Part shown: one piece after another, positions 27,785 through 39,640 of the stretch
Position numbering within the stretch: the first letter of the stretch is position 1
Layout of the letters: each line of letters starts with the position of its first letter
Origin: a virus
Strand: one strand, 5' to 3'
Virus record (IMG/VR): IMGVR_UViG_3300004151_000018
Span: 1-39,640 of that record
DNA length: 39,640 nucleotides
Made by a program: the position numbers and the translations under genes
Notes under the pieces: generated by a model
Database searches by the model: none
What the model was told of the DNA's origin: nothing
Seen by the model: the letters and a program-made list of their open reading frames with translations, nothing else

Positions 27785-28774
27785 TCAAGCGGTATTTGCG
27801 CGGCTGCGCAACTCCACCCGCGCCGCCGCGTACAATTCGCTCATCGTGTCCGCGACCGCGCGCCACCGCCGACCACCCAAAGACACCGCTCGGAATTGCG
27901 CGCGCAACGCCTCGTTCCGGTCCAAGCCGTCGCGATCCTCGCAAAACACCAGCGGGACCGGCATTCCATCGGCCAGCACCTGCGTGGTTGTCACGTCAGG
28001 CCGCAAGCCATAGACATCGCCAACCGCCTCCAGCCCCACCCGCAACGCCGCTTTGGCGCGACGCTGCACCGACCGCGCCGTACCTCCGGCGGCTTGGGTC
28101 AAGGTCGCCTCGCGCAAGACCACCGCCTCGACCATACCCCACACGGACGCGCCGTCGAACGCTCCGGCGTCCTGGCAAGCCCGCCGCGCCGCATCCATCC
28201 GCATCGCGGCAGCGACGGCGAAATCCTCCCACGACCGCCCGCCATCCACCGTCAGGCCGCTTCCTCCTCCGCCCCCCACGTCCTCATCGTCGCTGGCGTC
28301 ACGCGCGCCCGCAACCACCTTCGCGTCCTGCCCCAATCGGTCGCCCGCCTCGAACTGCCGCATGGTCAGCAGCCCACGCCCGTTGAGCGTGGCCAAGGCC
28401 GTCAATGCCCGCGCCCTGGACTGACCAGCGCGCATGGTTCCCTCGACCACCACGTCACGGCGATGACGCTCCGGCGACACAGCGCCGACGCGCGCCACCT
28501 GCTCCGCTTGCCGACCACGCTCGCCGTCAACCCGGCGGCGGGCGCGCTCCAGCAGGATTTCGGCAACCAGATCGGTGACGTCCTCCGGCCCTTCGCTCCC
28601 TTCCCGAAAATGGCGGCGGGTCACGACGCGACCGCCCTGCTCCAGTTCAGCCGTGAAGACATCCGGCAGATCGGCGCGGCGGGTCGCTGAAACCGCAACG
28701 GTCAGCGTCACCGACAGCATGGCGGGGGCGTCGGGAACTGGCAGAACGCGGACGGTCTGAACGGCGTGTTTCAT
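27785..28774 (-). CDS. DUF6456-like protein, candidate late-gene regulator
   Basis: This 329-residue protein has a middle region (about 130-256) resembling DUF6456: GRGLLTMRQFEAGDRLGQD, a Gly-rich linker, then MRMDAARRACQDAGAFDG and a helical end (AKAALRVGLEAVGDVYG). DUF6456 proteins in Alphaproteobacteria have a helix-turn-helix-like fold and are thought to be regulators. In this genome the gene is between the replication initiator and the late operon, the position of lambda Q, and the candidate promoter and terminator lie right behind it. The ATG at 28772-28774 was preferred; a GTG four codons earlier overlaps the previous stop (GTGA). A function as antiterminator or activator is a proposal, not shown. 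Confidence 0.55.
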   Translation of the reverse strand: MKHAVQTVRVLPVPDAPAMLSVTLTVAVSATRRADLPDVFTAELEQGGRVVTRRHFREGSEGPEDVTDLVAEILLERARRRVDGERGRQAEQVARVGAVSPERHRRDVVVEGTMRAGQSRARALTALATLNGRGLLTMRQFEAGDRLGQDAKVVAGARDASDDEDVGGGGGSGLTVDGGRSWEDFAVAAAMRMDAARRACQDAGAFDGASVWGMVEAVVLREATLTQAAGGTARSVQRRAKAALRVGLEAVGDVYGLRPDVTTTQVLADGMPVPLVFCEDRDGLDRNEALRAQFRAVSLGGRRWRAVADTMSELYAAARVELRSRANTA

Positions 28775-28782
28775 CGGTCGTC

Positions 28783-29853
28783 TCACAGCAGCGCGGGTTC
28801 AGGCAGGATTTCGGCGATCAGGTCGGAAGGAGCCTCACAACCGCGCTCGTTGGGCGGCGAACCCCAGGACGGGAGCCACGTTTTCGATTTCGCAAAGCCG
28901 CCCAACCGCATCCGCCAGACCTGCCGGGCAGCCGGTGAACTCCGTCCGAATTGCGGCTCCGGGGCGGCGGGCGCAGCGGCCACGGAAACCGTCGCCCGCC
29001 CCCCGGCGGTCAGCCGAACGTCCGGGTACCCGGCAGCCTGCGCGGAGACCAACTCCTTGATCCGGTTTGAAAACCATTTCAGCGCGTCGATGGGCGGCTT
29101 GCCGGTGTCGGCCAAACGCTGCTGGGCCGTCAGGAACGCATGTTCGCACAGGTGCAGGTCGGCCCCGGCCTCGATCAGCTCAGCCGCAACCGCCTCGTCG
29201 GTCGCGGCGGGACGGGTTCGGCGGGCCCCCTCCCCGAACGCCACCACCCGCGCTTCCTCAAACGCCGCGATGATCGCCGACACGCTGGTCAGCGATGCGC
29301 CCGTTCCTTCCATCCCATCAGCTTTAAGCTCAAGCTTAGCTTTTAGCTTTTCTTCTTTAAGCTCTTCAGCCGCAAAATTTTTGCGGGGATGGGGCAAATT
29401 ATTTGCGGGGATGGGGAAAGAATTTTGCGGGGGGAAGGCGACGACATTCCCCTCCCCCCGCAAACCGTTTGCGGGGATGGGGCAAATTTCTTGCGGGGGA
29501 GTGGGGCAAGAATTTTGCGGGGATGGGGCAAATTCCTTGCGGGGGTGGGGCAAGCGATTTGCGGGGGGAATCATCGCCTCCAGACGATCCAGATCGATCC
29601 GGTATTCACGGGGCCGATGCGTCACGGGGTCTTCCTTCGCGACCAGAACCAGCACGCCCAGGGCGACCAGATCGGCGATGGCGCTGCGGATCGTGGGCAG
29701 CGTCGCCGAGCAGGCCGAGGCCAGCGCCGGGACGGACGGAAAGACGCCGCTGCCGTCACGCTGGGCATAGCAGGCGCAGCGCAACAGCACCAGCTTGGGC
29801 GTGCTGCGCAGCGACGACAGCCAAATCATATCATCCAGAGCGCCATAGGCCAT
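28783..29853 (-). CDS. Replication initiator, O-like, with origin inside the gene
   Basis: This 356-residue protein begins MAYGALDDMIWLSSLRS. Residues about 15-95 form a winged-helix domain (PKLVLLRCACYAQRDGSGVF, ALASACSATLPTIRSAIADL), as in O-type initiators that bind iterons. Residues 92-158 are a low-complexity Pro/Asn/Lys-rich region (PHPRKEFAPSPQ, CPIPANGL) encoded by a 22-bp repeat array; its three frames give different peptides. An A+T-rich stretch follows (encoding EELKEEKLKAKLELK), then a C-terminal part (180-356) probably contacting a helicase or its loader. This is the order of lambda gene O: DNA-binding part, iterons, AT-rich DUE, C-terminal part. Neighbours are an AAA+ ATPase upstream and the Q-position gene downstream. 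The ATG is at 29851-29853. Confidence 0.8.
   Translation of the reverse strand: MAYGALDDMIWLSSLRSTPKLVLLRCACYAQRDGSGVFPSVPALASACSATLPTIRSAIADLVALGVLVLVAKEDPVTHRPREYRIDLDRLEAMIPPANRLPHPRKEFAPSPQNSCPTPPQEICPIPANGLRGEGNVVAFPPQNSFPIPANNLPHPRKNFAAEELKEEKLKAKLELKADGMEGTGASLTSVSAIIAAFEEARVVAFGEGARRTRPAATDEAVAAELIEAGADLHLCEHAFLTAQQRLADTGKPPIDALKWFSNRIKELVSAQAAGYPDVRLTAGGRATVSVAAAPAAPEPQFGRSSPAARQVWRMRLGGFAKSKTWLPSWGSPPNERGCEAPSDLIAEILPEPALL
29318..29372. other. A+T-rich stretch next to the iterons, possible unwinding element
   Basis: Sequence such as CTTTAAGCTCAAGCTTAGC, TTTTAGCTTTTCTTCTTTAAG is much more A+T-rich than this GC-rich genome. It lies immediately after the iterons in the gene's reading direction, the position of the duplex unwinding element in lambda ori. 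AAGCTTAGCTTTTAGCTTT also contains short tandem AGCTT repeats. Confidence 0.55.
29381..29578. repeat. Iteron array, candidate replication origin
   Basis: About nine units with consensus TTGCGGGGATGGGGCAAATT start at 29381, 29403, 29425, 29469, 29491, 29515, 29537 and 29559. One inverted unit (29446-29467) fills the one double-length gap, so the spacing is 22 bp except for one step of 24. Three units match the full 20-mer exactly; the rest are degenerate. The 22-bp period is not a multiple of three, so the peptide differs from unit to unit while the DNA is conserved. This argues that the DNA is selected. The array lies inside the O-like gene. Confidence 0.85.
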
Positions 29854-30305: not shown

Positions 30306-31208
30306 TCAGCGCCCCCCCTGGTCATTGGCGTCGCTGCGCGTCGGCGGCCATGCGATCTTCTTGATGCGGGCCAGCGCGGCGGCATCTCCCCACAGCGGTG
30401 GCAGCGTGCTTTCCGAATGAGGCCGCACCGACGCAATCGCCCGGCTCATCACCGACGCAACGTCCGTCGCCTGAGGAATCTTCGGGCTGATGACGAGGTC
30501 CCGCTTGATCCCCTCCATCAACTGCCGCAGCAGGGCCGGATAGGCTCCCGCCGTCGCGTCGCAAAGCTCATCCATGGCCTCGTCAGGCAGGATGTAGGGC
30601 TTCAGGTAGCGCGTCAGGATCGCGTAGCGGCATTCGTCGTCCGGTTCGCGGATTTGTAGGTGCATACCGAAGCGCCGCCAGATCGCCGGATCAATCCCGT
30701 CTCCCTGGTTGGTGGCAGCCAGCAACGTTCCGGGAAAGGCGTCGATCATCTGAAGCAGCGCGATGACAACGCTGTTTCGGTTGGCGTCCGTCGAATGGGT
30801 TACGTCGGTGCGCTTAGCCGCGATGCTGTCAAATTCGTCCAGGAACAGGATGCAACTATCAGCCTGAGCGATCACATCGTCGAAGAGCGCGTTTACGTTC
30901 TGGCCGGTTTCGCCGACATACTTGCTTTGCAACGACGCCATGTTGACCACGATCAAGGGCAATCCTCGGCGGGCGGCCAGATGATGCGCCATCGTCGTCT
31001 TGCCGCATCCAGGCGGCCCAAACATCAGCGCCGTGCGGCGCGCCTTGATCCCCACCGCCGCCAGCTCGTCCGCCGCATCCAGCTCGATCATCCATTGGCG
31101 CAGAGCGGCGCGGATCGGTTGATCCAGGATCGGGGCCTCAGCATCGCGCGGGTACAGGATTTCAGCGAACTGCCGAATCGTCCTGGTGGGTTTGAACGCG
31201 TCTGCCAT
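30306..31208 (-). CDS. AAA+ ATPase of the classic (katanin/FtsH-like) clade
   Basis: This 300-residue protein starts MADAFKPTRTIRQFAE. It has a single AAA+ module: Walker A GPPGCGKT at 64-71, the pore-loop-like SLQSKYVGET at 92-101, Walker B ILFLDEFD at 120-127, sensor 1 LLAATNQ at 162-168 and the arginine-finger region IWRRFGMH at 177-183. Outside the module are only about 50 residues at the N-terminus and a helical lid at the C-terminus. Such ATPases remodel proteins. It lies two small genes from the O-like initiator where other phages keep a helicase loader or helicase, but DnaC/lambda P-type loaders are of other clades. It may remodel initiation complexes; that is an inference. The ATG at 31206-31208 is used rather than a TTG two codons upstream. 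Confidence 0.85.
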   Translation of the reverse strand: MADAFKPTRTIRQFAEILYPRDAEAPILDQPIRAALRQWMIELDAADELAAVGIKARRTALMFGPPGCGKTTMAHHLAARRGLPLIVVNMASLQSKYVGETGQNVNALFDDVIAQADSCILFLDEFDSIAAKRTDVTHSTDANRNSVVIALLQMIDAFPGTLLAATNQGDGIDPAIWRRFGMHLQIREPDDECRYAILTRYLKPYILPDEAMDELCDATAGAYPALLRQLMEGIKRDLVISPKIPQATDVASVMSRAIASVRPHSESTLPPLWGDAAALARIKKIAWPPTRSDANDQGGR

Positions 31209-31210
31209 GG

Positions 31211-31894
31211 TCAACCCTCTCCGCCCGTCGCGTCATCACCACCGGATGAGCCGGACGCGGAGCCGCCCGGCTTGCCCGGCTTCTTGCCGCCCTTCTTCGC
31301 GCCACCGCGCCGCAACTCGGGCGGCAGGTCCATGCCGTCGCTGCCGGTCGCCGCACACCACGCAGCATCCCACGCGGCCCGGTTGGGGTCGCCTGCGGCA
31401 AACGGGTTGTCGGCCAGCGGAACACCGGCCTCACCGGCTGTCTTCCCCAGCGCTGTGGCTTCATCCTTGGTCACAGCATCGGGGGCTGAGGGGGGCGTGG
31501 GTGGCGCGTCGGGGCGTTTGCGGCCCGACAGATGATCCTCAATGTCCGTCTGCTGGTCGTCAGCGGGATCGGCAGCGCCCTTGTTGCCCTTGCCCTTCAC
31601 CGGGCGCGGGTTGAGCGGGATGTCCGGGTTCGTGCCAGCGCCTTCGCCAAAGCCCATTGCCTCCTTGTAGAGGTCGAACAGAGCCTCTTGCTCTGCCAAG
31701 GCGGCGGCGTTTTCCTCCCGTTTGTCCATGTAGGTGATGATCTGGCGGATGATCTTGGTGTCGAACCCGGTGCCCTTGGCTTCGGCGAAGACCTCCTTCA
31801 CGTCCGCCTGGATGCCCTTGACCTCCGCCCGCAGATTACGGATCCGCGTGACGAACGATTTCAGCCGCTCAGCGGCGATTCCTCCCGTGCTCAT
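31211..31894 (-). CDS. GapR/DUF2312 nucleoid protein with an added C-terminal tail
   Basis: This 227-residue protein carries DUF2312 (GapR) at residues about 5-82: RLKSFVTRIRNLRAEVKGIQ and VKEVFAEAKGTGFDTKIIRQI, ending in an acidic helix. GapR binds overtwisted DNA ahead of replication forks and is a compact protein of about 90 residues in the host. Here about 140 residues more follow: a Pro/Asp-rich linker, then GEAGVPLADNPFAAGDPNRA and WDAAWCAA (about 155-182), which resembles the small ribosome-modulation-factor-like motif N-P-x-x-x-G-x-x-x-x-x-AW-x-x-GW found in phage proteins, and finally a Lys/Gly/Ser-rich basic tail (195-212). It sits between the DUF1064 nuclease and the AAA+ ATPase. 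The GapR domain call is good; the motif at the C-terminus is weaker. Confidence 0.8.
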   Translation of the reverse strand: MSTGGIAAERLKSFVTRIRNLRAEVKGIQADVKEVFAEAKGTGFDTKIIRQIITYMDKREENAAALAEQEALFDLYKEAMGFGEGAGTNPDIPLNPRPVKGKGNKGAADPADDQQTDIEDHLSGRKRPDAPPTPPSAPDAVTKDEATALGKTAGEAGVPLADNPFAAGDPNRAAWDAAWCAATGSDGMDLPPELRRGGAKKGGKKPGKPGGSASGSSGGDDATGGEG

Positions 31895-33084: not shown

Positions 33085-33594
33085 TCAGTCCTTCGGGCGC
33101 GACGGCTTCATGAAAACGAGCCAGTGGGTCAGTCCCTTCCGCCCGGACGGATGACCGAAAAGTGGAGCGACAGGAGCCAAATCGAGAACTTCCCGCAGCT
33201 TCACTTGCGTCTCATTCCACTTGAAGACCAGCACGCCATGGTCATCAAGTACGCGGAAGCACTCTGCGAAGCCCTTGCGCAAGTCGTCCTGCCAGTCTTC
33301 GGACAGCTTTCCATATTTGGCTGCCAACCAGCTTTTTGGCCCGGCTTTCACCAAATGCGGGGGGTCAAACGCAACCAGCTTAAAAGTCCCGTCATTGAAA
33401 GGCAGCGCAGTAAAGTCAAGAAGCGTGTCGGGTTCGATAAGAAGCTTGCGGGTGCCGCTGGCGTTTCCATGTGAGCGGTCAGTAACGATGATGGTTTCGG
33501 AGCGACAATCTCCAAAAACAACATCCTGATTTTCTTTGTTGAGCCACATCATGCGGCTTCCGCAGCATGGGTCGAGAACGCGTTTCAGCCTCAT
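33085..33594 (-). CDS. Small SAM-dependent methyltransferase
   Basis: This 169-residue protein starts RLKRVLDPCCGSRMMWLNKE, the family opening with a motif I-like DPCCGSRMMW (8-17). It has FDPPHLVKAG (motif IV, 76-85) and a strand-rich end (HGVLVFKWNETQVKLRE, THWLVFMKPS). It is close to the small class I methyltransferases found in many phages (SAM-dependent, NPPY/DPPH type) and may modify DNA or a nucleotide. The 4-bp ATGA overlap at its start (33591-33594) joins it with the Lar-like gene. It lacks a target-recognition domain, so a partner or host-directed role is possible. Confidence 0.75.
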   Translation of the reverse strand: MRLKRVLDPCCGSRMMWLNKENQDVVFGDCRSETIIVTDRSHGNASGTRKLLIEPDTLLDFTALPFNDGTFKLVAFDPPHLVKAGPKSWLAAKYGKLSEDWQDDLRKGFAECFRVLDDHGVLVFKWNETQVKLREVLDLAPVAPLFGHPSGRKGLTHWLVFMKPSRPKD

Positions 33595-34190
33595 CGCCCG
33601 CCCTCTGCGCCCGGAGGTGCGGGGTACGGGTGATAAAACGTTGGCTGCGGCGTCAGCAGAAGGTCGTCGTCGTCCAACCAGCCTTCGACCCGGAGTTCAT
33701 CAACGTAGGCAATGCCGTAAACGCTGTTGCACGATCCTCCGGGCCATCCAACCCGCACCAGGCCTTCATCCTTGGGGGCCTCGGCAATCGACACCCACGC
33801 AGACGCGGGCGGGGCGGCATAGAGCGGCGTAACGCGCCATGCGGGCTTGCCTTCGTGCAGCGCCGCTGCTCTCCGTTCTGCGTGGTGGGAATCCTGCGTG
33901 ATGTTGCGGCCCGGGAGGATTTGGTCTTCGCACAGCCACGCGACGGGAGCCACCTGCTCCGCCGCGATCTTGGTCTCGTTGTCCTGGGGGTGGCGGCGGT
34001 TCCAGGCGGCACGGGCGGCGTCAACGCCACGACCGTCATCCTCGATGTAATCGCCATGCTCCACGACGGGGCCGCGAGCGCCGCAGTCATCGCAACGCGC
34101 TTGGTAGGCGCACAGGTCTTCGCGTTCCACGAAGATTCCCCGGTTGCCGCACATCGGGCAGGGCAGTAGAGTTATCGTGTTGTCGGCCAT
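33591..34190 (-). CDS. Lar-like zinc-ribbon protein with DUF551-like end
   Basis: This 199-residue protein begins MADNTITLLPCPMCGNRG. The N-terminal 70 residues carry two CxxC pairs (Cys11/14 and Cys33/36), followed by AAWNRRHPQ, the signature of Lar restriction-alleviation proteins. The middle (about 75-130) has a helix and strand pattern with WRVTPLYAAPP. The last 70 residues (SAWVSIAEAPKDEGLVRVGW, PQPTFYHPYPAPP) resemble DUF551. Lar in the Rac prophage weakens type I restriction. Fusion with DUF551 is seen in phage proteins, but the meaning is unknown. It sits between methyltransferases. Restriction alleviation is an inference from family and neighbours. Confidence 0.7.
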   Translation of the reverse strand: MADNTITLLPCPMCGNRGIFVEREDLCAYQARCDDCGARGPVVEHGDYIEDDGRGVDAARAAWNRRHPQDNETKIAAEQVAPVAWLCEDQILPGRNITQDSHHAERRAAALHEGKPAWRVTPLYAAPPASAWVSIAEAPKDEGLVRVGWPGGSCNSVYGIAYVDELRVEGWLDDDDLLLTPQPTFYHPYPAPPGAEGGR

Positions 34191-35338
34191 CACTGCGCTC
34201 CCTCTGAAATCGCGGCCCGACCGGCATCGGTAAGCCGAACGAACCCAACGCCCAGACAGCCGTTGACGATTGGCGCAAACCGCTGGTGCATCTCGACCAT
34301 GTCAGGCATCTCGGCCAGGACGCTCCAAATCCGGTTGCTCATCACCGGGGCAAATTCCTGTTCCGCCATGTCTTGGCCGATCAGTCCGGGGATTTGCGCC
34401 AGAAGGGCGAGCTTGTGCTTGTCGATGTCTGCAACGACACAGTTCGTCGCGACAGCTTCACCTTGACCAAGCGCCCGGTCGATCTGGGCCAGCGCCGTCA
34501 CGACACGATCAGGGGACGGAGAAGCCCCCAGCATCGCGCCGTAAATCGCCCGGTACATCCCTCCCCATTCGTGATCGCGGGGATCAGCCGGATCGGGCTG
34601 GGGCCGGTCAACACCAGCCATCAGCATGTCTTGCGTCGGTGTGATCGGAACCAGCTTCCAACCCGAAAGGGCCGCAAGCGGCGCTTCGGCCTTGATGGCG
34701 CGGTCCTTCATGGCAACGAATTCAGCCGTCCGCTCGGCCAGCTCCCGCGTCACCAAGTCGTAATCCGCTTCGAGGGCGTCCTTTAGCCGCACGATCTCCG
34801 TCGCCTGCGCTTCGGAGTGCTGTCGGATTATATCAGCAGCGCCAGCCGGGATACGGTCGAGCACATGCTCAGCGAGTTCGTCGGGGCGACCGATGGCGAG
34901 CATGACCAGACCGACCATGTCCGGATCGAGGAGTCCTTCTTCGTCGGTGTAGGGAGCAATGATCGCCACCTGCCCGCCATATGTGGCGGACGCAGCGACC
35001 GGGGCGACGCTCCACCCATGGAACCAAGCGAAGGCGGCATAGGCGGCCACGTCGATGGGGTCGCCCTTGTGGACGTAGCGCAGCAACTCGACCGCCAGTC
35101 CGTCACGCCAGCCCTTGCGCATCCAGTTGGCCGTCCAGCCATACTTGATCTCGGAGGCGCGGAGCTTCTTCGCCATCGCCTCGGCAAAGTCGCGGACCAG
35201 CGTGGCAGTGTTGGGGTGCAGGCCCTTGGGAATCTCGAAAGAGGCGAAAGCTGGATCGCCCGTCACTTTGTCGATGGTGTGGCGTGCGTCCTGGGCGTCA
35301 GTCGCCTGCGCCTGGGGGTGTTGGATGTCGTTCGTCAT
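34190..35338 (-). CDS. Protein with MazZ-type dATP/dGTP pyrophosphohydrolase domain
   Basis: This 382-residue protein has, at about 48-110, a MazG-superfamily domain of the dATP/dGTP diphosphohydrolase kind: AMAKKLRASEIKYGWTANW, then LAVELLRYVHKGDPIDVAAY and AAFAWFHGW, with the acidic residues of a metal site. A helical linker (AEHVLDRIPAGAADI, coiled coil to about 235) is followed by SGWKLVPITPTQDMLMAG and MYRAIYGAMLGASPSP, a motif found in many phage proteins near DUF551. MazZ enzymes remove dATP in phages with 2-aminoadenine DNA, but no PurZ is seen in this window. The start at 35336-35338 is used. Confidence 0.65.
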   Translation of the reverse strand: MTNDIQHPQAQATDAQDARHTIDKVTGDPAFASFEIPKGLHPNTATLVRDFAEAMAKKLRASEIKYGWTANWMRKGWRDGLAVELLRYVHKGDPIDVAAYAAFAWFHGWSVAPVAASATYGGQVAIIAPYTDEEGLLDPDMVGLVMLAIGRPDELAEHVLDRIPAGAADIIRQHSEAQATEIVRLKDALEADYDLVTRELAERTAEFVAMKDRAIKAEAPLAALSGWKLVPITPTQDMLMAGVDRPQPDPADPRDHEWGGMYRAIYGAMLGASPSPDRVVTALAQIDRALGQGEAVATNCVVADIDKHKLALLAQIPGLIGQDMAEQEFAPVMSNRIWSVLAEMPDMVEMHQRFAPIVNGCLGVGFVRLTDAGRAAISEGAQ

Positions 35339-35339
35339 G

Positions 35340-36110
35340 TCAGGACTCCCGACGCGCCAGTTCGGCGCGGATGATGGTTTCGGGCATGTGCGGTTTGGCT
35401 TTGGACGTTTCGTCCGTGTGGCGGTCCAGCAGGCCCTGGAGTTGGCCAGCGCTGAGAAGGCGCGCTTGATCTTCCCAGGCCGGGTAATCGTCCGGGCGCT
35501 CAAGGTCGCGGCGGCAGGGCGGGATGTGACGCCAGCGCGTATCCGTCTGACCATGCAGGAAGACAACCCAGGCGTAGGCGGTGGCGCTGCTCGCCTCTCG
35601 GGCCAGATACCCGCCAATCAGCGGCAGGCGTTCCGCGAACTGGGCGATCAGCGCCGGGGGGCAGTCGGCGAACAGGTTGAAGCGCTCAATCGTCTCCATC
35701 CAGGTCCCGCGCACCAGCATCGCGCAGCCCAGGCGTGACACCTGCATCGACCGGCGGACAAAATCCGTCGCCAGCCGAAACGGCGGGTTCGTGATGACCA
35801 GATCGGGCCTCACAAGCGGGGCGTCCGGCCACAGGAAATCCGACACCGGGAACCCAACGCCATAATCGTGGACGTCGCTTGCGATGACGGACCCGAAGGA
35901 CTCACGCAGCGGGCGCACCATGTGGCCACGGTTGGCGGCTGGATCCCACGCGGCCAGTTCCTCCAGAGGCGGCAGACGAAACGGCACGTCCTTTCGGTAA
36001 AGCACATGCTCGGTCAGCGCCCGCGTTCCCCAAGGAGGCGTGGGGAAGTCGTCCAAGCTGTCGCGCGCTTCGGTTCTTTGCGCCATCACGGCATGAGTGC
36101 GGTTCTGCAT
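35340..36110 (-). CDS. Adenine-type DNA methyltransferase
   Basis: This 256-residue protein starts MQNRTHAVMAQRTEARDSLD. It has DFPTPPWGTRALTEHV, DPAANRGHMVRPL (56-68, motif I-like) and ITNPPF (106-111, catalytic NPPF), the order of an N6-adenine methyltransferase with SAM-binding part first. It is of the phage DFPTPPWGTRAL type, where the partner site is not known. The C-terminus is charged, possibly for DNA contact. It is directly downstream of the cytosine methyltransferase with a 6-bp gap, and both are likely to protect phage DNA from restriction. Confidence 0.85.
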   Translation of the reverse strand: MQNRTHAVMAQRTEARDSLDDFPTPPWGTRALTEHVLYRKDVPFRLPPLEELAAWDPAANRGHMVRPLRESFGSVIASDVHDYGVGFPVSDFLWPDAPLVRPDLVITNPPFRLATDFVRRSMQVSRLGCAMLVRGTWMETIERFNLFADCPPALIAQFAERLPLIGGYLAREASSATAYAWVVFLHGQTDTRWRHIPPCRRDLERPDDYPAWEDQARLLSAGQLQGLLDRHTDETSKAKPHMPETIIRAELARRES

Positions 36111-36116
36111 CTCGGA

Positions 36117-37859
36117 TCACTCCGCCGCCATCTGGCGGTTCAGGGCGTGGACGTCGTTGGCGACCGCCAGCAGCCGGGCCATGCGCTTTGGCACGCTGTT
36201 GCCGATCAGGCGCATTTGTTCGGTTTTGGTGAGGGCGCGCTCGATCCAGACGGCGCTTCCGTCACGCCCCTTGACCTCGATCCAAATGGATTTCGGCAAC
36301 TCCAGCTCGTGGGCCGCTGCGGCTTCCGCCGGGGCCAGCATCCGCATGCGGATATCAGTCACGGCGTAGGGCTGACCCTGGATCGTCACGGTGACGACGC
36401 CGAAACGGTCGCGGGTGGACAGGGAATGCAGGGCGTCCCGGCAGTCTTGGCCGTCAGCCGACGCGCCGTAATACTTGGTCAGAAAGGCCGCGACGGCAGC
36501 GGTGTGGAACCCGCCAGCGGTCTGCGTCGGCACGGGCGCAGCAACATCCATGGCGGTCGATGTGCCGCGCAGTTCAGCCAGGTACGCCGCCGCAACTTGC
36601 TGCTGAGTTCCCGCCGTCGTCAGCGTGGACAGGGCGTCGCCTATCTCATGACCGACCAAGCCCGTGTTGTGCTGCGCCATGAAAGCAGCGACCAAGCCAA
36701 AGCGCGGCGCGCCCGCCATAATGGTTTGGATCGGCTCATCCGGCTTTTGACCGTGGCTGTTCTCGTTGAAGATCGTTAAAAACGCGCTCGCAACAGCCAT
36801 TTCCCCACCCTTTGCCGTGGTTATGGTCGGCAGGGGCTGTCTTCCGTCGCGAACGCGGGAGCCGCTTTTCGTATGGCAAAGCGGGACGATGAATGGCGCT
36901 TGCGTTTCAAGAACGAACCGCTTCAGGCCACTGGCCACCCGCTTCAACGTGGCGGGCGCCAACGGCTTCCGGCGCTCGAAGATACTCGTCATCGGCTGCG
37001 ACCAGTCGATGATGGACGCCGCCGACGCCCAGGGCAGCAACCCCAACGCCGCCGCCTCTTCGCGCGGCGCGTGGGTGCGTTCCGGCCAGCGGATTGGCTG
37101 ACCATCAAAGCGCGCGACCCCGAAATAGCGACGGCGGGCGGTCGGCACGCCGTAATCGGCGCAATTCAGGTCACGATCATCATAGGCCGCGCCAAGTTCT
37201 TTCAGATGGCTGACAAAGCGGCGAAAGGTCCGGCCCTGCCGCGCCTTGTCCCTTACGAGCTGCTGTTGCTCGCGCGGAACCCGCTCGCCCTTCGCGGCCA
37301 CGGCGCCGTCCAGCTTCAACACGCGCCCGGTCGCCTTGTCGCGCTTGGCTACCAGCGGACCCCAGCCGCGAATCTCCCGGACGTTCTCGATGAAGATCAC
37401 CGACGGTCTGGTTTTTCCGGCCCACCGGCAGACCTGCCAGGGGAGCGAGCGCACGCGGGCGGAACGCGGCGCGCCGCCCTTGGCGACCGAATGGTCCCGA
37501 CAATCCGGGCTGGCCCAGAGAACCTTGACGCGTCGACCACCCGTCGCCTGGATCGGATCGACGTCGAAGATGTCGCCGCGAATGTGCTTCGTGTGCGGGT
37601 GCAGCGCCTGGTGCGCGGCGATGGCCACCTCATCATGGTTGTTCGCCACGTTCACCGGCATGCCGGCTTCTTCCAGGCCTTGGCACGCCCCGCCCAGCCC
37701 GGCGAACAGGACCACGGTGATGGCGTCGTCCAGCGCCCACTGCTGAATTTTAGGGAGCGTGCTCGACGCAGCGCCCCGACGGCCAGCGCGATTGATCTTC
37801 ACTCCCGTCCCACGCGCCGCCATCGGCGCAGAGAAAAGGGTCTCTTGCGCGGCGATCAT
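36117..37859 (-). CDS. C5-cytosine DNA methyltransferase
   Basis: This 580-residue protein has the C5-methyltransferase motifs in order: FAGLGG (52-57, motif I), NNHDEVAI (motif II region), WASPDCRDHS with catalytic Cys120 (motif IV, here SPDC instead of the usual PPC), FIENVREIRGW (156-166, motif VI with ENV), CADYGVPTARRRYF (233-246, motif VIII) and RLIGNSVPKRMA near 555 (motif X). The long segment between VIII and X is the target-recognition part, with PIQTIMAGAPRFG and TLTTAGTQQ. It is larger than a minimal enzyme (about 330). It is the second gene of the early region and overlaps the antirepressor-like gene by 4 bp. Confidence 0.92.
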   Translation of the reverse strand: MIAAQETLFSAPMAARGTGVKINRAGRRGAASSTLPKIQQWALDDAITVVLFAGLGGACQGLEEAGMPVNVANNHDEVAIAAHQALHPHTKHIRGDIFDVDPIQATGGRRVKVLWASPDCRDHSVAKGGAPRSARVRSLPWQVCRWAGKTRPSVIFIENVREIRGWGPLVAKRDKATGRVLKLDGAVAAKGERVPREQQQLVRDKARQGRTFRRFVSHLKELGAAYDDRDLNCADYGVPTARRRYFGVARFDGQPIRWPERTHAPREEAAALGLLPWASAASIIDWSQPMTSIFERRKPLAPATLKRVASGLKRFVLETQAPFIVPLCHTKSGSRVRDGRQPLPTITTAKGGEMAVASAFLTIFNENSHGQKPDEPIQTIMAGAPRFGLVAAFMAQHNTGLVGHEIGDALSTLTTAGTQQQVAAAYLAELRGTSTAMDVAAPVPTQTAGGFHTAAVAAFLTKYYGASADGQDCRDALHSLSTRDRFGVVTVTIQGQPYAVTDIRMRMLAPAEAAAAHELELPKSIWIEVKGRDGSAVWIERALTKTEQMRLIGNSVPKRMARLLAVANDVHALNRQMAAE

Positions 37860-38662
37860 GGCCCAACCCCTTCATGGTTAGAGGCAATGGCTTTGCGAGC
37901 GGAGGCGGCTTTGGCCGGGCCTTTGTCGGTGTCCGCGTTTTTCGTGGCACCGCGCAGGATTGGGGTGATCGCCGCTTTCAGGTTCTCGCGCATCGCGACG
38001 TTGCGAATGTCGGGCGCCATCTCCCAAGCCCATTGGTCGATCAGGAAGCGTTCTTCGTCCTCCGAACCGGGTTTGTACCGACTGAGGATCGACACCCGCA
38101 GAATTTCGTTCTCGGGATTCCACAAACGACCACCGGCAAGATCGTGGGTCAGCCGATGAACCAACTCGCTCTGCAATCGGGGAATGGATGATTCGGCCAG
38201 ATAGCGGGCATGCCGCTGGATCTGTACCAGAACGTCCGGGTGAAAGATGTCGGCGGTGGTCATCGTCTGGCCACGCATCGGCAGGGCCAAGGGAGACGAG
38301 TCTTGATCGGGGACGGAAGACGCGGCGGGCTTGGTCGCGGCGTCGAACACCTCGACCATGGCGATCAACAGCTCGACGCCCGCCGGAAGATCGGTCTTAC
38401 CGCCCAGATAAAGCGCCTGCTTTTTGTTGAAGGCCATTCCTTCGCTGGGGCGGCCCCGCCCGATTTTCGACGCACGGTGCGTCGAAATTCTGCCAAACCG
38501 TTCCAGGGATTCCCGGTGACGCTCTGCAAGTTGACGCAGGTCTTGAACCTTGGCGTAACCCAAGGCTGCCGCCAGCGTCACGTCCGTAACGCGCGGCTCA
38601 TTGTCGATGATGGTGATGTCGGTGGTGGTGAGCGCGCACGCGCTCGATTGCATTGCGTCCAT
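37856..38662 (-). CDS. Antirepressor-like phage regulatory protein
   Basis: This 268-residue protein, the first of the early region, begins MDAMQSSACALTTTDITIID. Residues about 15-110 have the pattern DNEPRVTDVTLAAALGYAK, LRQLAERHRESLERFG, GRPSEGMAFNKKQALYLGGK and AMVEVFDAA, typical of the N-terminal DNA-binding domain of phage antirepressors and Rha-like proteins. The C-terminal part is helical with EDEERFLIDQWAWEMAPDI and a Lys/Ala-rich end. The ATG at 38660-38662 is chosen for its GGAGG about 9 nt upstream; the frame stays open far upstream through non-coding sequence. It probably regulates lysis-lysogeny or the host, but no partner repressor is visible. Confidence 0.7.
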   Translation of the reverse strand: MDAMQSSACALTTTDITIIDNEPRVTDVTLAAALGYAKVQDLRQLAERHRESLERFGRISTHRASKIGRGRPSEGMAFNKKQALYLGGKTDLPAGVELLIAMVEVFDAATKPAASSVPDQDSSPLALPMRGQTMTTADIFHPDVLVQIQRHARYLAESSIPRLQSELVHRLTHDLAGGRLWNPENEILRVSILSRYKPGSEDEERFLIDQWAWEMAPDIRNVAMRENLKAAITPILRGATKNADTDKGPAKAASARKAIASNHEGVGP

Positions 38663-38762
38663 GACGCAAGCCTCCTCTGACGGCATTGCCGACGCAGGGA
38701 GGCTTTTCATGACCGCCCTGGCGCCGGGGGCTGAAAACCTGTCAGAGGCAGGCCGGAATGTT

Positions 38763-38803
38763 CCCCTTGCGGGTATTGTATTATCCGACCCCCGGCAAAG
38801 GGG
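38763..38803 (-). promoter_or_regulatory. Candidate early promoter with operator-like inverted repeat
   Basis: CCCCTTGC at 38763-38770 and GCAAAGGGG at 38795-38803 form an inverted repeat. Between them, on the minus strand, is GGATAATACAATACC, with TACAAT or GATAAT as a possible -10 for the leftward early operon, about 100 bp before its first start codon. No good -35 is visible. A repressor or activator site is a reasonable reading; this is low certainty. Confidence 0.4.
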
Positions 38804-38959
38804 ATGCGCCGGACGGAATCCGGGCATGAAAATAGCCGCATCGCACGAGTGCGCGGGCGGCATGCCGCTCTGAAGAGTTTTCAAGCTCCAAGACGGAGAC
38901 TGCTCCACAGAAACAGCGGTTGTCAAGACGGTGATGGCGGCGCCTTCCCAATCCCCCGG

Positions 38960-39020
38960 GAATTTATCGTACCCCCGGAAAAAGGCTTGGCACGGTTGTT
39001 TCTCGGGGGTACGATAATTC
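38960..39020. promoter_or_regulatory. Long inverted repeat at the brnTA promoter, probable operator
   Basis: GAATTTATCGTACCCCCG (38960-38977) and CGGGGGTACGATAATTC (39004-39020) are reverse complements apart from one extra T, separated by 26 bp. The right arm covers the -10 of the brnT promoter. BrnA and similar antitoxins repress their own operon, so the arms are good candidates for BrnA-BrnT binding. Confidence 0.7.
38987..39015 (+). promoter_or_regulatory. Sigma70-type promoter of brnT-brnA
   Basis: TTGGCA (38987-38992), 17 bp, TACGAT (39010-39015) is a near-consensus promoter. Transcription would start about 39022, at or next to the ATG at 39023, so the message may be leaderless or almost so; there is no Shine-Dalgarno. 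Confidence 0.75.
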
Positions 39021-39022
39021 TC

Positions 39023-39283
39023 ATGAAGATCACGTTCGATCCCGCCAAGCGCGACAAGACCCTGACCGAACGCGGCATTGACTTCGCCGACGCGGCAGAC
39101 GTGTTCATCGGCCCGACGTTGGATCGACCGGATGATCGTTTCGATTACGGTGAAACCCGCATCGTCACGGTCGGACATCTGCGCGGTCGGATGATGGTGA
39201 TCGTGTGGACGCCGCGCGGCGATGCGCGGCACATCATTTCGATGAGGAAAGCCAATGACCGAGAGCAAGCGCGCTTTGGGTAG
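39023..39283 (+). CDS. brnT: BrnT toxin (DUF497), ribonuclease of a type II toxin-antitoxin pair
   Basis: This 86-residue protein starts MKITFDPAKRDKTLTERGID. The family order is clear: FDPAKR.KTL.ERGIDF, ADAADVF, FDYGETRIVTVGHLRGR, VIVWTPRGD and HIISMRKANDRE, ending just after. BrnT has a RelE-like fold and cleaves RNA to stop translation. Its length and its overlap of 29 bp with brnA match known pairs. The ATG at 39023 lies at the predicted transcription start. The gene is on the plus strand, unlike the phage genes, and could be a phage accessory gene or the host side of an insertion. Confidence 0.92.
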   Translation: MKITFDPAKRDKTLTERGIDFADAADVFIGPTLDRPDDRFDYGETRIVTVGHLRGRMMVIVWTPRGDARHIISMRKANDREQARFG

Positions 39284-39545
39284 CGACCTGGAAAAGGTCG
39301 ATTCCCATGTCATCCAGCCCGAGGAATACGATGAAATTCCCGAGCTGACGGCGGAATGGTTCGTACAGGCGCAACCGCACATCGGCGGGAAGCCTGCGCG
39401 TCGCGGTCGCCCGCCATCCGACAGCACGAAGGAAGCCATCAAGCTGCGCCTGGACGCCGATGTGGTGAAGCACTTCCGTGAAACCGGGCCGGGCTGGCAA
39501 ACCCGCATCAACGAAACCCTGCGCCGCGCCGCCGGTCTGCCGTGA
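39255..39545 (+). CDS. brnA: BrnA antitoxin
   Basis: This 96-residue protein begins MTESKRALGSDLEKVDSHVI and has QPEEYDEIPELTAEWF, the usual BrnA N-terminal toxin-binding region. It then has a basic linker GGKPARRGRPPSDS, and a ribbon-helix-helix end: AIKLRLDADVVKHFRETGP and WQTRINETLRRA. BrnA neutralises BrnT and represses the operon. It overlaps brnT by 29 bp and follows the family order (toxin first). The end is 23 bp before a higA-like start. Confidence 0.92.
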   Translation: MTESKRALGSDLEKVDSHVIQPEEYDEIPELTAEWFVQAQPHIGGKPARRGRPPSDSTKEAIKLRLDADVVKHFRETGPGWQTRINETLRRAAGLP

Positions 39546-39568
39546 CGATGGTGAGGGAACGTACCACC

Positions 39569-39640
39569 ATGATCGGCCCCAACCCGCCCGTGCATCCGGG
39601 CGAAATCCTGCGGGAAGAGTTCCTGATTCCCTTGGGCTTG
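39569..39640 (+). CDS. higA: HigA-like antitoxin, partial at the right edge
   Basis: Only 24 codons are in the window: MIGPNPPVHPGEILREEFLI and onwards to PLGL. P-x-HPGE-x-LREEFL-x-PLGL is the family start of HigA/VapI antitoxins, XRE-type helix-turn-helix proteins. An ATG at 39548 in the same frame gives 7 more residues. It is 23 bp after brnA, in the same direction, with no HigB gene in front. HigB may lie past the edge, or HigA may be alone. The identity is good; the gene's end and partner are not visible. Confidence 0.8.
   Translation, partial: MIGPNPPVHPGEILREEFLIPLGL

Follow-up and report, generated by a model that had tools for sequence, protein, structure and literature searches.

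An array of iterons placed within the gene of its own initiator is the textbook layout of phage lambda, and the arrangement itself is already known. The lambda origin, made up of iterons and an A+T-rich tract, lies in the middle of gene O (PMC7466680). In pSK41, a Firmicute plasmid with a RepA_N initiator, four Rep boxes occupy the center of rep, with the N-terminal binding domain encoded on one side of them and the C-terminal domain on the other (PMC5703833); in the repABC plasmids of alphaproteobacteria the origin lies inside repC, and silent mutations showed that an A+T-rich stretch is needed for replication (PMC3155836). O-like genes are also carried by the Rhodobacter capsulatus phages RcHotPocket and RcKemmy, for which PMC8601537 describes no origin in the passages on replication, origin, and repeats that were covered (12 of 14).

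The DNA analyzed here (the window) is the whole of virus record IMGVR_UViG_3300004151_000018, 39,640 bp, the minus strand of which encodes siphophage-type terminase, portal, capsid, and tail genes. Judged from its sequence, this phage very probably starts DNA copying at repeats that lie within its own initiator gene. The locus comprises the following features.

28783 to 29853, minus strand: O-like replication initiator gene, 356 aa (from PHROG, Pfam, and gene order)
29569 to 29853, minus strand: winged-helix DNA-binding region, residues 1-95 (from AlphaFold and PDB fold matches)
29372 to 29562, minus strand: iteron array, eight palindromic cores GCAARNNNYTTGC and C-rich spacers in 22-bp phase (from pattern and repeat-density scans)
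29303 to 29382, no strand: A+T-rich low-stability stretch, candidate unwinding element (nearest-neighbor energy, rank 1)
28786 to 29316, minus strand: C-terminal part of the initiator (mostly low-confidence model)
30306 to 31214, minus strand: AAA ATPase gene (PF00004, 3.2e-29; PHROG 3757, 1.3e-60)
27785 to 28786, minus strand: DUF6456 gene (PF20057, 8.5e-6, at gathering score)

The initiator protein matches the replication initiation protein family PHROG 270 (1.8e-9), with further matches to PHROG 391 (O-like; 4.3e-7) and PHROG 678 (4.9e-5); a match to Pfam HTH_36 (E 4.3e-5, 23.7 bits) falls just below the gathering cut-off of 25. AlphaFold places a winged helix (wHTH) at about residues 7-95, with helices and strands in wHTH order across residues 11-90 (pLDDT 67-95); the model is poor past the wHTH (mean pLDDT 54.6). 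Fold matches in the PDB are generic winged helices, all of them weak, and include the DnaD N-terminal domain (2v79) and an initiator (4pt7). The C-terminal part, with predicted helices at 191-206, 221-250, and 255-273 (pLDDT low to moderate) and no Pfam or NCBIfam match, is presumed to be the candidate helicase-recruiting part.

The AAA ATPase gene is located upstream of the initiator in the same early region, the DUF6456 gene is next downstream and overlaps the end of the initiator gene, and the gene order around initiator and ATPase is similar in relatives. The ATPase is 42% identical to the AAA-ATPase of RcHotPocket, and ATPases of this type are found near O-like genes in alphaproteobacterial prophages. 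It also resembles the anti-phage ATPase IteA (NF042959, E 1.9e-54), yet scores 185 bits against a cut-off of 510.

The 13-bp core GCAARNNNYTTGC has seven exact matches in the window, all within 29372-29562 (0.18 expected by shuffling, for a pattern written after the array had been seen), and there is one further, imperfect core at 29416-29428. Read along the coding strand, the cores are GCAAATCGCTTGC, GCAAGGAATTTGC, GCAAAATTCTTGC, GCAAGAAATTTGC, GCAAACGGTTTGC, GCAAAATTCTTTC, GCAAATAATTTGC, and GCAAAAATTTTGC, with start-to-start steps of 22, 22, 24, 22, 44, 22, and 22 bp, and they are mostly linked by the C-rich spacer CCCATCCCC. Behind core 5 lies an inverted C-tract; the 22-bp phase is kept across the 44-bp step because 44 bp is two units. 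Repeat density at the array (151 of 200 bp) is the maximum of the window; 100 dinucleotide shuffles of the whole window gave 58 at most. A sequence-only reading of this DNA had counted about nine 22-bp units, one inverted yet in phase; the array is real and the inverted element is there, but the count is eight palindromic cores, one of them imperfect.

The A+T-rich flank adjoins the array on its 3′ side (in gene direction); for low stability, 29317-29366 ranks first in the whole 39.6-kb window at 50 bp, and 29303-29382 does so at 80 bp. The complete genome of RcHotPocket, the iteron of which is unlike that of the window, likewise has its least stable 50 bp (39144-39193) and 80 bp (39114-39193) adjoining its array; in four other complete phages the site comes between rank 11 and rank 37 of about 700-840 at 50 bp, so that the stability minimum is supportive rather than general. 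GC skew carried no signal, with no switch at the array, and the strict DnaA box TTWTNCACA is absent from the whole window. The order of wHTH, iterons, low-stability flank, and C-terminal part is that of lambda O, in agreement with the sequence-only reading, which had placed the array inside an O-like gene, directly behind the winged helix and before an A+T-rich stretch, in the lambda gene O/ori layout.

Transcriptional regulation is a frequent role of winged-helix proteins that have palindromic sites. Plasmid iterons may also serve regulation, as in the Rep_3 case (PMC5703833). A role as operator or autoregulatory site of the O-like protein, or as copy-number site, with the origin elsewhere, is nevertheless unlikely for the array: it starts about 290 bp into the gene, no second iteron array exists anywhere in the window, and the window's least stable DNA adjoins it. 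The array may be regulatory in addition to being the origin.

The repeats could also be a by-product of a proline-rich, repetitive protein linker, with selection acting on the peptide and not on the DNA. The linker of the window initiator is indeed proline-rich, and one homologue (L008) has a period of mostly 21 bp, with repetition in the peptide as well. For the window this explanation is very improbable, because its eight cores are read in frames 0, 1, 2, 2, 0, 2, 0, and 1, thus in all three, and synonymous recoding destroys the repeats: in 300 trials of codon shuffling within the initiator gene, with protein and codon use unchanged, none was as repetitive as the gene itself. One core includes a TAA (at 29401), which does no harm solely because it stands out of frame.

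Two phages closely related to each other argue the same way. The initiators of RcHotPocket and RcKemmy are identical at 81 of 94 wHTH residues (86%), as against 17 of 60 aligned residues of the linker (28%); in the C-terminal part the figure is 76 of 155 aligned residues. Each gene holds three exact copies of the 11-bp core CGACTCCGAAA, in frames 1, 0, and 0 in RcHotPocket (encoding PTPK, RLRN, and RLRN) and in frames 2, 1, and 1 in RcKemmy (SDSEK, PTPK, and PTPK); as the same core is kept in different frames, it is the DNA that is conserved and not the peptide. The earlier reading had claimed units alike as DNA and read in differing frames, as found here, and had proposed beforehand that in homologues the DNA repeat should persist while the linker varies, which is the pattern in these two phages; the opposite case, a conserved linker without a DNA repeat, was not seen among 17 homologous genes.

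Searches based on the initiator itself failed to provide homologues: tblastn in phages at E 0.01 gave no match, peptide-pattern scans yielded a single contig, 100% identical over 14.1 kb, and nothing from genomes, a two-unit iteron pattern retrieved only that same contig, and whole-genome searches with the protein returned at best weak wHTH matches. The AAA ATPase was therefore taken as bait. Homologues were selected by this neighbor and then by a winged-helix HMM, repeats playing no role in the selection, and the set comprises 17 distinct O-like genes, that of the window included.

The stretch behind the wHTH in this set contains repeats, the sequences of which differ between genes (for example, AAAGGGGGCA, CCGTGTCTCA, CCGACTCCGAAA, CCGGCAAA, AAGGGGTCAAC, and CTAAGGGTGACA). 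Measured against 390 control coding segments, repeat content is above the 95th percentile in 15 of the 17 genes, and in 15 genes no more than 4 of 300 synonymous recodings reach the observed repeat value; the exceptions in both tests are L021 and L061, the latter with its best repeats further along than the stretch tested. Few repeat copies are present in L062 and L077. As a positive control, the same repeat finder returned the four annotated iterons of lambda O. Arrays were also identified in eight further, hand-picked O-like genes from phages of Pseudomonas, Rhizobium, Salmonella, Vibrio (only two clear copies), Aeromonas, and a cyanobacterium. Overall, some two dozen related genes were examined, most of them from alphaproteobacterial phages and prophages, and nearly all have in-gene repeats, each with its own sequence; the comparison adds to what was known by indicating that the in-gene iteron layout is usual across alphaproteobacterial phage initiators. 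Some phage packaging sites contain repeats, but a packaging, recombination, or other structural role for the array is extremely improbable, given that the terminase genes are about 3 kb off and that the repeats stay inside the initiator gene in relatives.

Iteron likeness tracks wHTH identity across the 17 genes (Mantel r 0.39, p 0.0002), a correlation that is suggestive only, because it is due in part to shared DNA ancestry in one clade. The iterons of Pseudomonas and Aeromonas phages resemble the window iteron; with wHTHs just 17-26% identical, this is not taken as a sign of common recognition. Direct repeats of the GAACCNGT type, about 12 bp apart, lie right behind the iterons of several O-like genes, at these gene positions.

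L110: 417-440
L009: 480
L115 (PPF1): 411-445
L116 (ST64B): 373-410

This motif was considered as a second DNA element and set aside; its copies mostly share one reading frame, and the cause may therefore lie in the protein (EPV repeats).

By the features tested (O-like family, wHTH with a moderate sequence match, in-gene iterons, and A+T-rich tract), the window initiator appears to belong with the lambda-O-type initiators; these features fit, and the domains of the plasmid families are absent, with no Pfam match to RepA_N and no match to RP-C (PF03428) in the initiator, and no repA or repB among the neighboring genes scanned. Lambda O and ori-lambda (and the Stx phages) share with the window in-gene iterons behind the DNA-binding part, an A+T-rich tract, and a C-terminal part; the lambda iterons begin at about codon 117 of O. 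The differences lie in the iterons (eight 13-bp palindromes in 22-bp phase in the window, four 18-bp iterons at 20-24 bp in lambda, of different sequence), in the wHTH (only 12% identical in alignment), and in the P-like loader of lambda, whereas none was recognized next to the window initiator, nor any helicase or helicase loader among the window genes scanned. RepA_N plasmids such as pSK41 have an initiator of another protein family, with only the weak wHTH-fold match (4pt7) to the window's, and repABC plasmids rely on the RepC family, the part shown to matter there being the A+T-rich stretch. RcHotPocket and RcKemmy share with the window the AAA ATPase gene order, the in-gene iterons, and the low-stability flank; they differ in the iteron (CCGACTCCGAAA, step 24 bp) and in the protein, which is about 23% identical to that of the window.

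Three relatives have a different back end.

L039, 9178-9978: O-like initiator with DnaA domain I behind wHTH and iterons
L058, 7075-7851: O-like initiator with DnaA domain I behind wHTH and iterons
L059, 9264-10361: O-like initiator with DnaA domain I behind wHTH and iterons

The DnaA N-terminal domain was identified at the C-terminus of all three (E 8.9e-12, 1.2e-10, and 3.7e-9, respectively), and for the C-terminus of L058 the PDB also gave DnaA domain I structures as matches (2e0g, E 2.1e-4). DnaA domain I contacts DnaB, and this suggests direct helicase recruitment in these relatives, a suggestion that does not extend to the window protein. The DnaA domain-I-like end of some homologues likewise adds to what was known.

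Anatomy and comparison make the origin reading well supported, and the locus is in all likelihood a lambda-O-type origin within its own initiator gene, at which the protein would drive binding, unwinding, and firing. We infer the steps from binding and dimer formation through unwinding and helicase loading to firing as follows: the winged-helix part would bind each 13-bp palindrome, probably as a dimer; the eight units, about two helical turns apart, would load the protein on one face of the DNA to give an O-some-like complex; this complex would destabilize the A+T-rich stretch beside it; and the host replicative helicase would be recruited by the C-terminal part, either directly or via a partner.

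Because protein and site share one short segment, a gene swap would deliver a matched initiator and origin together. We tentatively propose, as a possibility somewhat short of even, that many phages of alphaproteobacteria have O-like winged-helix initiators belonging to a single broad class, that of self-matched replicon cassettes. In this proposal one gene holds both the binding domain and the iterons private to it, and the two would diverge together, while the back end would be swapped; some members would have received a DnaA domain-I-like part, able to recruit the host helicase with no need of a P-like loader. For this phage and for about two dozen more, most of which belong to alphaproteobacteria, the survey provides candidate origin positions; it also provides a natural series of matched initiator/iteron pairs with divergent sequences in which joint change can be studied, under the added limit that the DNA must remain readable as protein in shifting frames.

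Other elements of the window were noted. A match to the Rfam family sRNA-Xcc1 (38715-38796, minus strand; 61.1 bits, gathering 53, E 9.6e-9) sits within a 579-aa ORF (37856-39595) that has no family match; either the early region of the phage encodes a small RNA or the ORF is no true gene at this place. Three DNA methyltransferase genes (33085-33594, 35340-36110, and 36117-37859) lie in one early region, together with a Lar-like restriction alleviation gene (33591-34193), and a gene at 31211-31894 encodes a GapR-like DNA-binding domain fused to a stretch weakly resembling ribosome modulation factor.
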